A stretch of 64,000 nt of DNA from Prolixibacteraceae bacterium (GTDB lineage: Bacteria; Bacteroidota; Bacteroidia; Bacteroidales; Prolixibacteraceae). Positions within the stretch are counted from its first letter, which is position 1. Each line of letters begins with the position of its first letter. The notes below the pieces were generated by a model. That model made no database searches and had not been told where the DNA came from. It saw only the letters and a program-made list of their open reading frames with translations. Position numbers and translations under genes: made by a program. The stretch is from assembly GCA_019459525.1 (NCBI GenBank), contig JAIBEY010000042.1, positions 1-64,000 of the forward strand, in the 5' to 3' direction. This document shows positions 14,512-49,894 of this stretch, piece after piece.

Positions 14512-16776
14512 TTATTTTGCATCTTTCACTGTCTTGGTAAAGTCGTTCTGAATTTTCATCAGGTTGACCGAATAGATCAGGATGTTTCGGACTTCACTCA
14601 GGATACTCAGCAAAAGCATACTGTTTTTGGTTCCCACATCATTTTTCTTGATCGATTTAATCAGGTTTTTCCGGGCCTCACGCACCATGTCGATAATTCG
14701 AACCTGTTCAGCATTGATTTCAGCCAGCTTGTCTTCATTGTTCGACTCCAGCAGATCAATCATTTTTTTGGTAAACACTGAAAACTCTTCGGCAATTTGA
14801 GTCAGTTCAACAGCTTGCGAGGCCAAAATAGGTTTATGGTTGTTATCCACATGGTTAAACACCGGATCGGTAAGGTAATTGATACAATGAGCCAGCTCCT
14901 TCAGGTAATCTAAGGTTAACACATAATAATGACTGGCCTCTACCGAGTCAGGAGGTAACGAATTGATTGTCTGGTGTATTTTGTTCTTTTTATTCAACAA
15001 CTTCTGCTCCAGCTCAACGGTATTCTGTACTTGTTTTTTTAGTTCCTTACGGTTTTCTTTAATCAGTCCTTTTACGGTTTCGCTAAAAATAGAGCTAACG
15101 GTATTCAGGGTTTTGGTTATTCCTTTGTTGTTTGTTTCAAACATCGAAACTACAGTTGGAATAATTTCAGTTTCTTCAGCGGCAGCCTGAAAATTCTCTT
15201 CGCGTTTTTTGTGCACCAGGTGTGTCCGGTAAAAAGCCAGAATGGCAAACGTCAATATGGCAACTACCCCGAAAACCTGAGCCCAGCCCATAAACAATGA
15301 CAAAAAGAAGGCGACCGAGAAAGCTGCCAATCCGGTAATAAACCAACCACCAATAACCGTAAAAACCCCGGTTATGCGGTAAACCGCACTATCGCGCCCC
15401 CAGGCTCCATCAACCAGCGAAGTACTCATGGCAACCATAAAAGTAACGTAGGTGGTTGATAATGGTAATTTATAAGAAGTCCCCACAGCAATAAGAATGG
15501 AAGCAACCATCATATTTACTGATGCCCTCACCATATCAAACATCGGCGGATTCGGGTCTTTCTTGGTTCTTTCCTCCATCTCCGAAGTATCGAAACGCTT
15601 GCTGATTTTATCAATGACCGGTTGTGGAATGACATGGCTGAAGAAGGTGCCGGTATTTACTACACGGCGAACCAATACTCTTGAAAAGGCTGACGAACCA
15701 AAACGCTCGGTCCCTTCTTCCTGGCGGCTTAAGCTCAACGAGGTTTCGATAACTGTTTGGGCTTTTCTCGAGAACCATAATACGATAAGCATAATAACAC
15801 CGGCACTGATCAGATAATAGGAGGGGGTTTTAATGTCGCCAAGCAATTTACCCATTAACAGGTCGTTACCGTTATTTTCGGCAAATACTTTAAACGACTC
15901 AAGTCCGGCAAGTGGCACACCGACAAAATTCACCAAATCGTTGCCGGCAAATGCCATAGCCAACGCAAAGGTGCCGGTTAATACCACAATTTTAAGAGGA
16001 TTGGTCTTAAATATCCAGCTTGATAATTGCAAAATAGCTGACCAGAAAACAAAACTTAACAGTATAATCAGCAACGTATTTTCTTTAATCTGGGCATACA
16101 TTTCGGGTGTCATAAACGAGGCATCTTTTACCCCTTTGATCAGGATAAAATAAGTAATTGCCGAAATGGCTACCCCACCCCACAACGAACCGTAATATTT
16201 AATTGTTTTTTCGATATTAAAACTGAAAAGTAAACGGCTTAACCATTGGATAACAATACCGAAAACGAAGGAAAAAACCACCGATAAGAGGATGCTGGAG
16301 ATGATGGTAAGCGCTTTGGTGGAATTAATAAAATCGCTGATTTGCGCAATTTTTTCTACTCCGTCCACCATGATAGTGGCTCCATCCCCAACTTTCAAAA
16401 AGGCAATACCAACAGCGGCTCCAAGTAACCCGAATACAAGCGAAACTGTGGTTGAAGTAGGTAATCCAAACGTGTTAAAGAAGTCGAGCAAAAGGACATC
16501 GGTAAACATGACAGCCATAAAAATGAGAATGACTTCGGTAAACAGGAAATACTGCGGGTGGAAAAGCCCTTTGCGCGCAACTTCCATCATCCCGTTTGCA
16601 AAAAGGGCACCAACGATAATCCCGATACTGGCGACAATCATAATCATTCTTCGGGAGGCTACTTTCGAACCAATAGCAGAATTCAGAAAGTTAACGGCAT
16701 CATTGGCAACGCCGACTGTCAGATCGGATATAGCCAAAACAAAAAGCACTATCAAAAAGAAAATGTAAATACTCAT
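14512..16776 (-). CDS. PiT-family inorganic phosphate transporter with C-terminal PhoU-like domain
   Basis: 754 residues. Residues ~1-545 are a polytopic membrane domain with the PiT signature VGVANDAVNFLNSAIGSKVA near the N terminus and a second repeat containing AGNDLVNFVGVPLAG, the duplicated GNDxxN phosphate motif of the family. Residues ~560-750 are a soluble, helical PhoU/DUF47-like region (HYYVLTLDYLKELAHCINYL, ILSEVRNILIYSVNLM). PiT carriers take up phosphate with H+ or Na+; fused or adjacent PhoU-like domains are thought to regulate them. The gene has the dispersed repeat copy 1 about 80 bp upstream of its start. Confidence 0.94.
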   Translation of the reverse strand: MSIYIFFLIVLFVLAISDLTVGVANDAVNFLNSAIGSKVASRRMIMIVASIGIIVGALFANGMMEVARKGLFHPQYFLFTEVILIFMAVMFTDVLLLDFFNTFGLPTSTTVSLVFGLLGAAVGIAFLKVGDGATIMVDGVEKIAQISDFINSTKALTIISSILLSVVFSFVFGIVIQWLSRLLFSFNIEKTIKYYGSLWGGVAISAITYFILIKGVKDASFMTPEMYAQIKENTLLIILLSFVFWSAILQLSSWIFKTNPLKIVVLTGTFALAMAFAGNDLVNFVGVPLAGLESFKVFAENNGNDLLMGKLLGDIKTPSYYLISAGVIMLIVLWFSRKAQTVIETSLSLSRQEEGTERFGSSAFSRVLVRRVVNTGTFFSHVIPQPVIDKISKRFDTSEMEERTKKDPNPPMFDMVRASVNMMVASILIAVGTSYKLPLSTTYVTFMVAMSTSLVDGAWGRDSAVYRITGVFTVIGGWFITGLAAFSVAFFLSLFMGWAQVFGVVAILTFAILAFYRTHLVHKKREENFQAAAEETEIIPTVVSMFETNNKGITKTLNTVSSIFSETVKGLIKENRKELKKQVQNTVELEQKLLNKKNKIHQTINSLPPDSVEASHYYVLTLDYLKELAHCINYLTDPVFNHVDNNHKPILASQAVELTQIAEEFSVFTKKMIDLLESNNEDKLAEINAEQVRIIDMVREARKNLIKSIKKNDVGTKNSMLLLSILSEVRNILIYSVNLMKIQNDFTKTVKDAK

Positions 16777-17218
16777 GGGAAAGTTTTTAGTTCGCAGACT
16801 TTGCTTCTAGGCCGGAAGATACTATGAAAGTGTGGTAAGTAATGAATTTGGGGGATTTCATGTGTTTATAATTTGTTTTTTATTTGCCACATGGAACTCC
16901 CAGATAATGATCCCCCTGTGTGAGGAAGATTTTCTCATGGTCGTTTCATAATATCTTAACCAAATATTAATCAGTTTGTAATTTTAATTTCGGTTGACAA
17001 AAATAATTATTTTATTCTTGACAAGGCAGTAAATAAATTATTTCTCCAATTTATCCGGATTTAGGGTGCATGGGAAACAGGTATTCCGCACTCCTTTGCT
17101 GATGTTTTTTGCTATCATGTACTGTGCTGTTAAAAATTTGGGAAGAATGGGCTTACTTCTGATTCATTGTTCTATTTTTACCGGCAGAAATTCCAATTAA
17201 TGAACAAAAAACAGTCCT
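16777..17218. other. 442-bp intergenic region with dispersed repeat copy 1
   Basis: Lies between the divergent PiT transporter and fucosidase genes. It holds the structured repeat at 16859-16949 and an AT-rich stretch (16960-17060) that probably contains the fucosidase promoter, although I cannot pick a clear -7 element. A 24-codon frame starting at 16861 on the minus strand follows the repeat but looks non-coding. Confidence 0.5.
16859..16949 (-). repeat. Dispersed ~92-bp repeat, candidate structured leader RNA, copy 1
   Basis: Read on the minus strand it starts ATGAAACGACCA, folds back on TGGGAGTTCCAT, and continues into an A-rich stretch AATAAAAAACAAATTATAAA and an ATG. The arms pair as AAC-GA-CCA with TGG-GA-GTT, leaving a tandem G-A mismatch that is conserved in the other two copies, while the flanking pairs differ. 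It lies upstream of the PiT transporter gene on the same strand. Family unknown to me. Confidence 0.6.
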
Positions 17219-20417: not shown

Positions 20418-20512
20418 CATCTGTGTATAATTTGTTTTTTAATTGTCAGATGGAACTCGCCATGGATAATCATCCTTCAGTGTGTGAGATTTTCTCTCAT
20501 GGCTCGTTTCAT
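20418..20512 (-). repeat. Dispersed ~92-bp repeat, candidate structured leader RNA, copy 2
   Basis: On the minus strand: ATGAAACGAGCCATG pairs with CATGGCGAGTTCCAT, leaving a tandem G-A mismatch. Internal hairpins TGAGA/TCTCA and GGAT/ATCC lie in the loop. The element ends with ACAATTAAAAAACAAATTA, then CACAGATGAAAAAG, the same 14 bases as in copy 3. About 280 bp upstream of the minus-strand fucosidase gene. Confidence 0.65.
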
Positions 20513-45652: not shown

Positions 45653-45723
45653 GGTCGGTTGGCCGAGTGGTTAGGCAGCGGTCTGCAAAACCGTGTACGG
45701 CGGTTCGAATCCGCCACTGACCT
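45653..45723 (+). tRNA. tRNA-Cys (GCA)
   Basis: Cloverleaf: acceptor GGTCGGT pairs with ACTGACC (one G-T), D arm GGCC...GGC, anticodon loop CTGCAAA with GCA at 45685-45687, T arm GGCGG-TTCGAAT-CCGCC, discriminator T. CCA is not encoded. 71 nt. Confidence 0.95.
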
Positions 45724-49313: not shown

Positions 49314-49805
49314 TCATTTGTCATAGTTTAACTTTCGAAAGATTTTACTCTCACATATTTCTTTCAACTTGCCGAGTGCTTTTGGGTAGGTCTGGTTCAT
49401 ATAATCTAAAAAATCTTCAGTAGTAGCGTCTAAGTCAACGATAACGGTTGTAGATCCATTGTTTTCTTCGAAGGTATAGTTTTCAAATCCGTTTGCCCAT
49501 TTTTCAACTTCAGGCCCTTCTGTAATTTCCTTGTCAGCTTTTAAAAGACCATAATGTTGAATCGAAACAAATCGGTTGGGAATGTTTTCAGCTATCCTGG
49601 AAACCATACCTCCCTTTTCTCCATTCTCATCAACTCCAATAAACAGAATCTTATTTCCCTTGTCCCAACTTCCTTCATAGGTAGATGTGGGGTTAAACAA
49701 AGAAGTCCATTGCTCATAAGTTGATTTACTGTTGATGCCAAGCATAAAATCATATATCCTGGGCACAGGTGCATTGATGCTTACTTTGAACTGTAACTTT
49801 TTCAT
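49314..49805 (-). CDS. SRPBCC-family protein (AHSA1/START-like)
   Basis: 163 residues starting KKLQFKVSINAPVPRIYDFM, the usual SRPBCC opening (strand and helix that bind ligand), with GSWDKGNKILFIGVDENGEK and a closing helix FLDYMNQTYPKALGKLKEI. The fold makes a deep hydrophobic pocket; function of this subgroup is unknown. Its start codon is the ATG that ends the dispersed repeat copy 3, so the repeat is its immediate leader. Confidence 0.88.
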   Translation of the reverse strand: MKKLQFKVSINAPVPRIYDFMLGINSKSTYEQWTSLFNPTSTYEGSWDKGNKILFIGVDENGEKGGMVSRIAENIPNRFVSIQHYGLLKADKEITEGPEVEKWANGFENYTFEENNGSTTVIVDLDATTEDFLDYMNQTYPKALGKLKEICESKIFRKLNYDK

Positions 49806-49894
49806 CTGTGATTAATTTGTTTTTTAATTGCCGGATGGAACTCGCATGTGAGATTGTCACCCGTGTTTGTGTTTAGCGAACATGCTCGTTTCAT
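49803..49894 (-). repeat. Dispersed ~92-bp repeat, candidate structured leader RNA, copy 3
   Basis: On the minus strand: ATGAAACGAGCATGT pairs with ACATGCGAGTTCCAT, again with a tandem G-A mismatch and with stem pairs that differ from copies 1 and 2 yet remain complementary. A GTGA/TCAC hairpin sits in the loop. It runs through CAATTAAAAAACAAATTA and CACAG into the ATG of the SRPBCC gene. Confidence 0.65.

Follow-up and report, generated by a model that had tools for sequence, protein, structure and literature searches.

A candidate mobile hairpin element of about 90 bp that targets start codons in Bacteroidales

Introduction

Insertion sequences of the IS200/IS605 family insert without target duplication. 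Their rules, as given in excerpts of PMC6006769, comprise hairpin ends, a short flanking target, a like sequence at the other end and an internal guide for both. In REP/RAYT systems, a genome holds many short hairpin repeats whose movement is attributed to Y1 proteins acting in trans (excerpts of PMC3733652 and PMC6006769); in the same excerpts, REPs measure 20–40 bp (PMC3733652) or 21–65 nt (PMC6006769), carry a GTAG-like tag and often lie near a RAYT gene. Two further classes occur in Bacteroidetes: TAACTGA direct repeats just upstream of start codons, present in some members of the phylum too (PMC4679880, abstract), and structured-RNA motifs held in Rfam, such as Bacteroidales-1, Flavo-1 and others, which are taxon-limited candidates (PMC2864571, in the part available to us).

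Here we analyse repeats found in a 64,000-nt stretch of a Prolixibacteraceae genome (contig JAIBEY010000042.1, positions 1 to 64,000, hereafter the window). Judged from sequence, their best description is a start-codon-targeting mobile hairpin element of ~88–92 bp. Like IS200/IS605 members, the element adjoins a fixed short target (the host ATGAA, at its right end in the sense orientation) without target duplication, and it has a guide 5' of the hairpin, where antisense ATGGAA is predicted to pair with TTTCAT or TTCAT. Unlike that family, which has subterminal hairpins of ~20–25 nt at both ends, it possesses one large hairpin of ~50 nt and one stem of 6–9 bp, a guide shared by both ends and no transposase in cis; its target is the complement of a start codon, and nearly all copies seen are sense to genes. 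The element resembles REPs in being short, hairpin-bearing and present in many copies per genome, and differs from them in its length (~90 bp), in the lack of a GTAG-like tetranucleotide, as read from the alignments, and in its position, since copies do not lie beside Y1/RAYT genes (26 loci) and the five Y1 genes that we inspected are accompanied by other palindromes. TAACTGA repeats are heptamer arrays, and the abstract of PMC4679880 mentions neither hairpins nor empty sites nor an ATGAA target. Similar to Bacteroidales-1 and Flavo-1, the element is structured and taxon-limited; unlike them, it is not reached at threshold by any Rfam 15 model. Among the papers listed by our literature searches, judged by titles and abstract openings and with few subscription papers covered, none described the element.

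Results

Architecture of the element and its three copies in the window

A sequence-only reading of the window had reported three minus-strand copies of a leader repeat, with stems flanking a tandem G-A mismatch. Copies and stems were all found as described, and the last bases quoted in that reading correspond to the host ATG. Each copy spans one ATGAAA to the next ATGAAA, in the order ATGAAACGA-hairpin-GAGTTCCAT-XYZ trimer-A-rich loop-Z'Y'X', and its right end abuts the host ATGAA. In detail, [ATGAAA]CGA is followed by a variable hairpin and GAGTTCCAT; then come XYZ, an A-rich loop whose consensus is GGCAATTAAAAAACAAATTAT, and the XYZ complement. The features in the window are as follows.

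16862..16949, minus strand: element copy 1 (GTG/CAC type, 88 bp); the PiT gene at 16776 lies 85 nt downstream
20421..20512, minus strand: element copy 2, 92 bp, with the host ATGAAA next, at 20420-20415
20507..20512, minus strand: left ATGAAA of copy 2, borne by the element; a spare start codon that opens stem 1
20450..20455, minus strand: TTCCAT 'guide' of copy 2 (antisense ATGGAA)
20447..20449, minus strand: XYZ trimer CTG of copy 2, left arm of hairpin 2
20421..20423, minus strand: Z'Y'X' trimer CAG of copy 2, right arm of hairpin 2 and final bases of the element
49806..49894, minus strand: element copy 3, 89 bp, CCG with an unmatched CAG end

The guide TTCCAT of copy 2 is complementary to both the left ATGAAA and the host ATGAA except for one A.C (T.G on the antisense strand). 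Pfam matches identify the gene behind copy 1 as PHO4/PiT (PF01384) and the one downstream of copy 2 as an alpha-L-fucosidase (PF01120), in agreement with the PiT and GH29 assignments made earlier; the third assignment, SRPBCC, was not recovered, as the 163-aa protein behind copy 3 has no Pfam match at E<=1e-5. Copy 3 is flush with the start codon of the ORF 49314-49805, and the GH29 gene likelier starts ~280 nt than 178 nt from its element. A tRNA gene at window positions 45653-45723 is the sole Rfam match at gathering score in the window.

Copy number and distribution

The genome (5.54 Mb, 116 contigs) contains 38 exact matches to ATGAAACGA...GAGTTCCAT and none to a reversed control pattern, and we rejected chance as the origin of the repeats. 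A covariance model built on 37 exact copies yielded 71 matches in the genome at E<=1 and 62 at E<=0.01. Scanning related genomes with such a model, as had been proposed from the window alone, returned matches at E<=0.01 in 41 of the 61 genomes of the order, with a maximum of 69 in one genome.

In a scan of GTDB contigs, at least 120 stretches carried the pattern. Among the 80 matches listed, whose genera are in part those to which we take them to belong, all titles name Bacteroidota bar L170, L212 and L161/L178. The stretches from a Chloroflexi MAG (L170) and from Mesorhizobium (L212) carry the pattern without a model match; those from the unclassified BMS3Abin03 (L161, L178) do have model matches. 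Viral-contig stretches with the pattern have a model match in 4 of 22 instances (L269, L273, L277, L286). Tandem copies are not confined to this genome: Marinilabilia, Geofilum, Thermophagus and others have them too. Two or three elements stand head to tail at L201 2799-3109, L225 67-273, L153, L165, L176 and L208, the hosts of these arrays being Thermophagus, Marinilabilia, Geofilum, Carboxylicivirga and a Porphyromonadaceae MAG.

The initial impression that the repeat belongs to no named RNA family held up in the Rfam search suggested at the time. A known Rfam family was rejected, as no model reached its gathering score on the element: the sub-threshold matches of one search fell off the elements, the strongest in an empty site (L059), and those over the element stayed far below gathering score (E 2.5–9.7).

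The element is absent from most orthologous start sites

We compared 80 orthologous start stretches from seven congeners, corresponding to 24 element-bearing genes, and dropped six in which the start was not alignable. Among the remaining 74 starts, two harbor an intact element (L075, L101), two a decayed one (L102 and L104, E 0.05 and 0.006) and 70 none. These empty starts include 33, for 15 copies, that align well to the element-bearing locus (at least 70% alike over 30 nt upstream, a likeness reached by 2.7% of 300 random pairs), and ATGAA begins 29 of these 33 sites; in four of the 70 empty orthologs, the aligned position lacks a start codon. In the RlmN ortholog of G003, which lacks the element, the flanks are identical right up to the two element borders. 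In addition, copies 96.6–97.7% alike lie at different genes, pointing to recent movement. Since orthologous starts are mostly empty, near-identical copies occur at different genes and copies stack in tandem, the element is very probably mobile; we give the same weight to its insertion before ATGAA.

The same data led us to reject a regulatory leader conserved with its genes, as first envisaged: only four of the 74 starts hold an intact or decayed copy, and three of these four belong to one gene. At this gene, behind L003, which looks to us like an S41 peptidase gene, an intact or decayed element stands at the start in three of five congeners, and a fourth (L105) has a weak one ~100 nt upstream. 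The elements concerned lie at L003 1469-1565, L101 558-655, L102 140-203, L104 140-199 and L105 252-349, with different subfamilies in two. This gene counts against pure turnover; because the G003 element there is of another subfamily, the site may be a hot spot or hold an old, replaced copy. A strong element (89.6 bits) is also present in G003 at L109 460-557, on the strand opposite to the compared gene, and probably belongs to a divergent neighbour.

ATGAA as the probable insertion target

Across all loci we collected 207 distinct copies of the pattern, 178 of which have ATGAA 20–43 nt behind the guide. The other 29 include matches due to chance, copies that are masked or cut off and a few genuine ones with a different host start, namely GTG (L015, L151), ATGAGA (L030) and ATGGAA (L162). 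In a set of 176 copies, chosen by a paired right stem and a left TGAA, ATGAAA is found on both sides in 149 and on the left side in 170. The host hexamer is ATGAAT (11), ATGAAG (3), ATGAAC (2) or ATGAGA (1) in 17 copies with a left ATGAAA, and one further copy at a host ATGAAT has TTGAAA on its left. The variable host hexamer beside a constant left ATGAAA indicates that the left ATGAAA is the element's own, that the target is ATGAA and that no target duplication is needed. Among the 20 further model matches of this genome described below, the left hexamer is altered in 11 (GTGAAA 4, TTGAAA 2, ACGAAA 2, ATGAGA 2, ATGAAG 1). As the borders read, insertion falls directly ahead of the ATG, does not disturb the coding sequence and brings the element's own ATGAAA upstream; in practice, the target is mostly a start codon followed by a Lys or Asn codon.

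To place the copies relative to genes, we examined 58 sites in the genome, comprising the 38 exact copies and the best 20 of 33 further model matches; two precede another element, leaving 56 non-tandem sites. With start codons called by a crude ORF caller without annotation, an ORF of at least 100 aa begins at 43 of the 56 sites (P 8e-6); a count of 44 starts gives P 2e-6. Start codons follow 31 of the 37 non-tandem exact copies versus 48% of non-genic ATGAAA sites (31/65; P 6e-6), and make up ~10% of all ATGAAA sites in the genome. The 13 non-start sites comprise eight in sense within ~180 nt before a gene (seven with the more distant GH29 start), one that precedes a sense gene by 340 nt, one broken sugar kinase start, one 71-aa ORF, one without a nearby sense gene and one not assigned. 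Omitting the broken gene, the short ORF and one unassigned site, sense leaders within 200 nt account for 8 of 10 non-start copies (P 0.007), or 7 of 10 with the more distant GH29 start (P 0.035), against a background of 41 of 111 non-start intergenic ATGAA sites.

The ten host genes that we looked up share no common theme and include those for IspD, RlmN, a biotin carrier, a Clp ATPase and phosphoglycerate mutase, among others. At L007, on the minus strand below 3510, an element lies at the start of a frame-broken gene resembling a PfkB-type sugar kinase.

A covarying hairpin incorporates the host ATG

The element comprises one hairpin of ~50 nt and one stem of 6–9 bp with a ~22-nt loop. We aligned 37 of the 38 exact copies (alignment A1), omitting the long second copy of L025; the two conserved blocks are invariant by construction, as the search pattern fixed both, and the trimers are free. 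The sequence-only reading had proposed covariation in the left stem. By column, little of it is seen in the 37 copies, where three of five pairs are invariant and one pair is double-changed in one sequence, whereas the inner part of the stem does change on both sides between subfamilies (GCAT/ATGC 52, GCCA/TGGC 28, CCAT/ATGG 2, GCAC/GTGC 2 and ACAC/GTGT 2 among 178 copies). Compensatory changes are thus present in the enlarged set, and they are strong in a second hairpin that the reading had not described.

This second, right-hand hairpin, CAT-XYZ / Z'Y'X'-ATG, includes the host ATG in its stem. In A1, both sides are changed at one pair in 16 of 37 sequences and at another in 12 of 37. Its covariation score is equalled by 0 of 500 shuffles, while the number of further pair types is equalled by 344 of 500, and shifting the partner by one column lowers paired cells from 98.5% to 15–21%. 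In the 178-copy set, which involved no selection on the trimers, these are exact complements in 139 copies and of ten types, compared with a mean of 23.1 and a maximum of 39 in 2000 shuffles. In other genera the right stem extends up to 8 bp (L128, L129, L141). The CAT of the guide can pair with either the left ATG or the host ATG, and the two pairings are mutually exclusive.

The tandem G-A had been read as a sign of a sense-strand RNA. It is not decisive: the opposite strand has a T.G wobble in place of the stem's A.C, and the G-A is replaced by Watson-Crick pairs in a few copies from relatives (L131, L133). Counts of mismatches by strand vary with the set, sense-strand G.T outnumbering A.C by 53 to 15 in an early selected set and by 20 to 15, hardly a preference, in a less selected one, with the opposite lean in the right stem (10 versus 16). 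Relative to shuffled sequences, fold stability has a mean z of -2.5 for the sense RNA and -2.0 for the antisense, and the energies show no clear preference for a strand.

A tentative model for movement and its alternatives

Our preferred reading, held tentatively and at somewhat less than even confidence, is that of a non-autonomous mobile DNA element that travels in folded, single-stranded form, following the logic of IS200/IS605, a likeness of layout from which membership in that family or among REPs does not follow. Its antisense strand reads TTCAT^XYZ...Z'Y'X'-ATGGAAC-TC-hairpin-TC-GTTTCAT^, where XYZ is the complement of the sense end trimer. On this strand the target TTCAT would flank the left end and the element would end in the like TTTCAT; the guide ATGGAA, 5' of the large hairpin, would pair with TTCAT or TTTCAT, and cleavage and joining there would fall to a Y1-type HUH enzyme provided in trans. 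Y1 genes are present in 54 of the 61 genomes of the order, and the element occurs in 40 of these 54 versus one of seven Y1-free genomes, by a single weak match (Fisher P 0.004, relatedness ignored). Over the 61 genomes, copy number and Y1 number correlate positively (rho 0.57), which they do not within the genus (rho -0.21, P 0.33). Several observations run against this mechanism: the hairpin is bigger than an IS200/IS605 end, the guide lies 3 nt off the hairpin foot, the tandem G-A favours a sense-strand fold, and non-start insertions, too, are mostly sense, counter to what a strand-blind DNA mechanism predicts.

The link to particular Y1 genes was also examined. No element model match was found in 26 Y1 loci (4 own, 22 other), and five Y1 genes inspected by eye (four here, one in G005) are flanked by other palindromes. 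G005 has 69 copies and one Y1 gene, and G011, with 33 copies, has no match to that Y1 subfamily at E<=1e-20; together with the other palindromes beside it, this weakens the sole Y1 subfamily of G005 as the cognate enzyme. The DH.H / WQ / Y..NQ..HH motifs of subclass 1.2 are, as we read the sequences, present in the G005 Y1 protein and in three of the four from this genome; for this subclass the table in PMC6006769, a source available to us in part, gives no terminal structures. A search with exact right halves revealed no long autonomous copy in the genome; 41 of 46 such halves fall in model matches and the other five have untypical trimers. The palindromes flanking Y1 genes (e.g. CCCAAGGCGTTGCCGTTGGGC; L312 around 1300-2180, L034-L037, L297) look REP-like and unrelated to the element.

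That another enzyme moves the element is possible, if rather unlikely in our estimation. It might be a tyrosine recombinase acting on a 5-bp core TTCAT/ATGAA in a folded single strand, like integron attC, or a rolling-circle enzyme with the sense strand as its substrate. The 5-mer shared by both junctions would allow crossover anywhere within it, tandem arrays are consistent with such an activity, the 7-base arms ATGAAAC/GTTCCAT with the tandem G-A make a good sense-strand hairpin, and Y1 genes are not clearly linked to the element. The attC core consensus is matched in the element only at AAC/GTT, which counts against a recombinase. A cis-regulatory leader RNA, in which TTCCAT would pair with the upstream or the true start codon in the manner of a riboswitch or translational switch, would account for the two exclusive CAT pairings, the sense orientation before genes, which the enlarged data bear out together with the structured nature of the element, the covarying structure, mainly in hairpin 2, the sense fold being more stable than shuffled sequences, and the element or remnant at the L003 gene in most congeners. 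We consider it improbable given the 70 of 74 orthologous starts without element and the ten host genes without common theme; the element, though no conserved leader, may still affect expression. We give very little weight to movement at the RNA level, in which base pairing would bring the element into mRNA where start codons are accessible, and reverse transcription would return it to DNA. Its preference for start codons (43/56) or sense 5' leaders (7–8 of the 10 others) and the sense-strand G-A pairs agree with such a route, but RVT_1 matches and the element are not associated (P = 1). An RVT_1 reverse transcriptase as a requirement was rejected, as 16 of 24 genomes without an RVT_1 match carry the element, among them G012 (one contig, 49 copies).

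Consequences for the host gene

Should some host genes be essential, as is to be expected, expression must survive insertion. We propose that it would do so because the right end provides an A-rich leader before the host's own start codon. At the right end of the 178 copies, A is found at -6 (129), -12 (155) and -13 (128), and C at -3 in 162. A Kozak-like context was rejected as an explanation since, common as A is at -6, -12 and -13, the C at -3 does not fit the A-3 rule given in the consulted part of PMC6847099.

Whereas genes are normally avoided or destroyed by insertion elements, the present one exploits a 5-mer characteristic of many gene starts and spares the gene. It is abundant (up to 69 model matches per genome) and sits at starts such as those of ispD and rlmN, where changes in expression and wrongly annotated start codons are to be expected. 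Its enzyme, if found, could be put to use in inserting short sequences precisely ahead of start codons. In a more speculative scenario, which we think unlikely, the element would be a parasite that targets translation starts as such, with insertion coupled to transcription or to an exposed start region; its left ATGAAA would let ribosomes start, stop soon or at once, and then resume at the true ATG by restarting or hopping, leaving the insertion barely noticeable to the host, even at essential genes.

With the old leader in front of it, the left ATGAAA may serve ribosomes as a start. Among the 38 exact copies, the frame opened by the left ATG runs for 4 to 55 codons in 36 and continues in frame into the host gene in two (L016, L030), and its stop overlaps the true start as ATGA in seven. 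Met-Lys-stop stands at the left end in the relatives L131, L133 and L134 and in four further copies of this genome (L348-L351).
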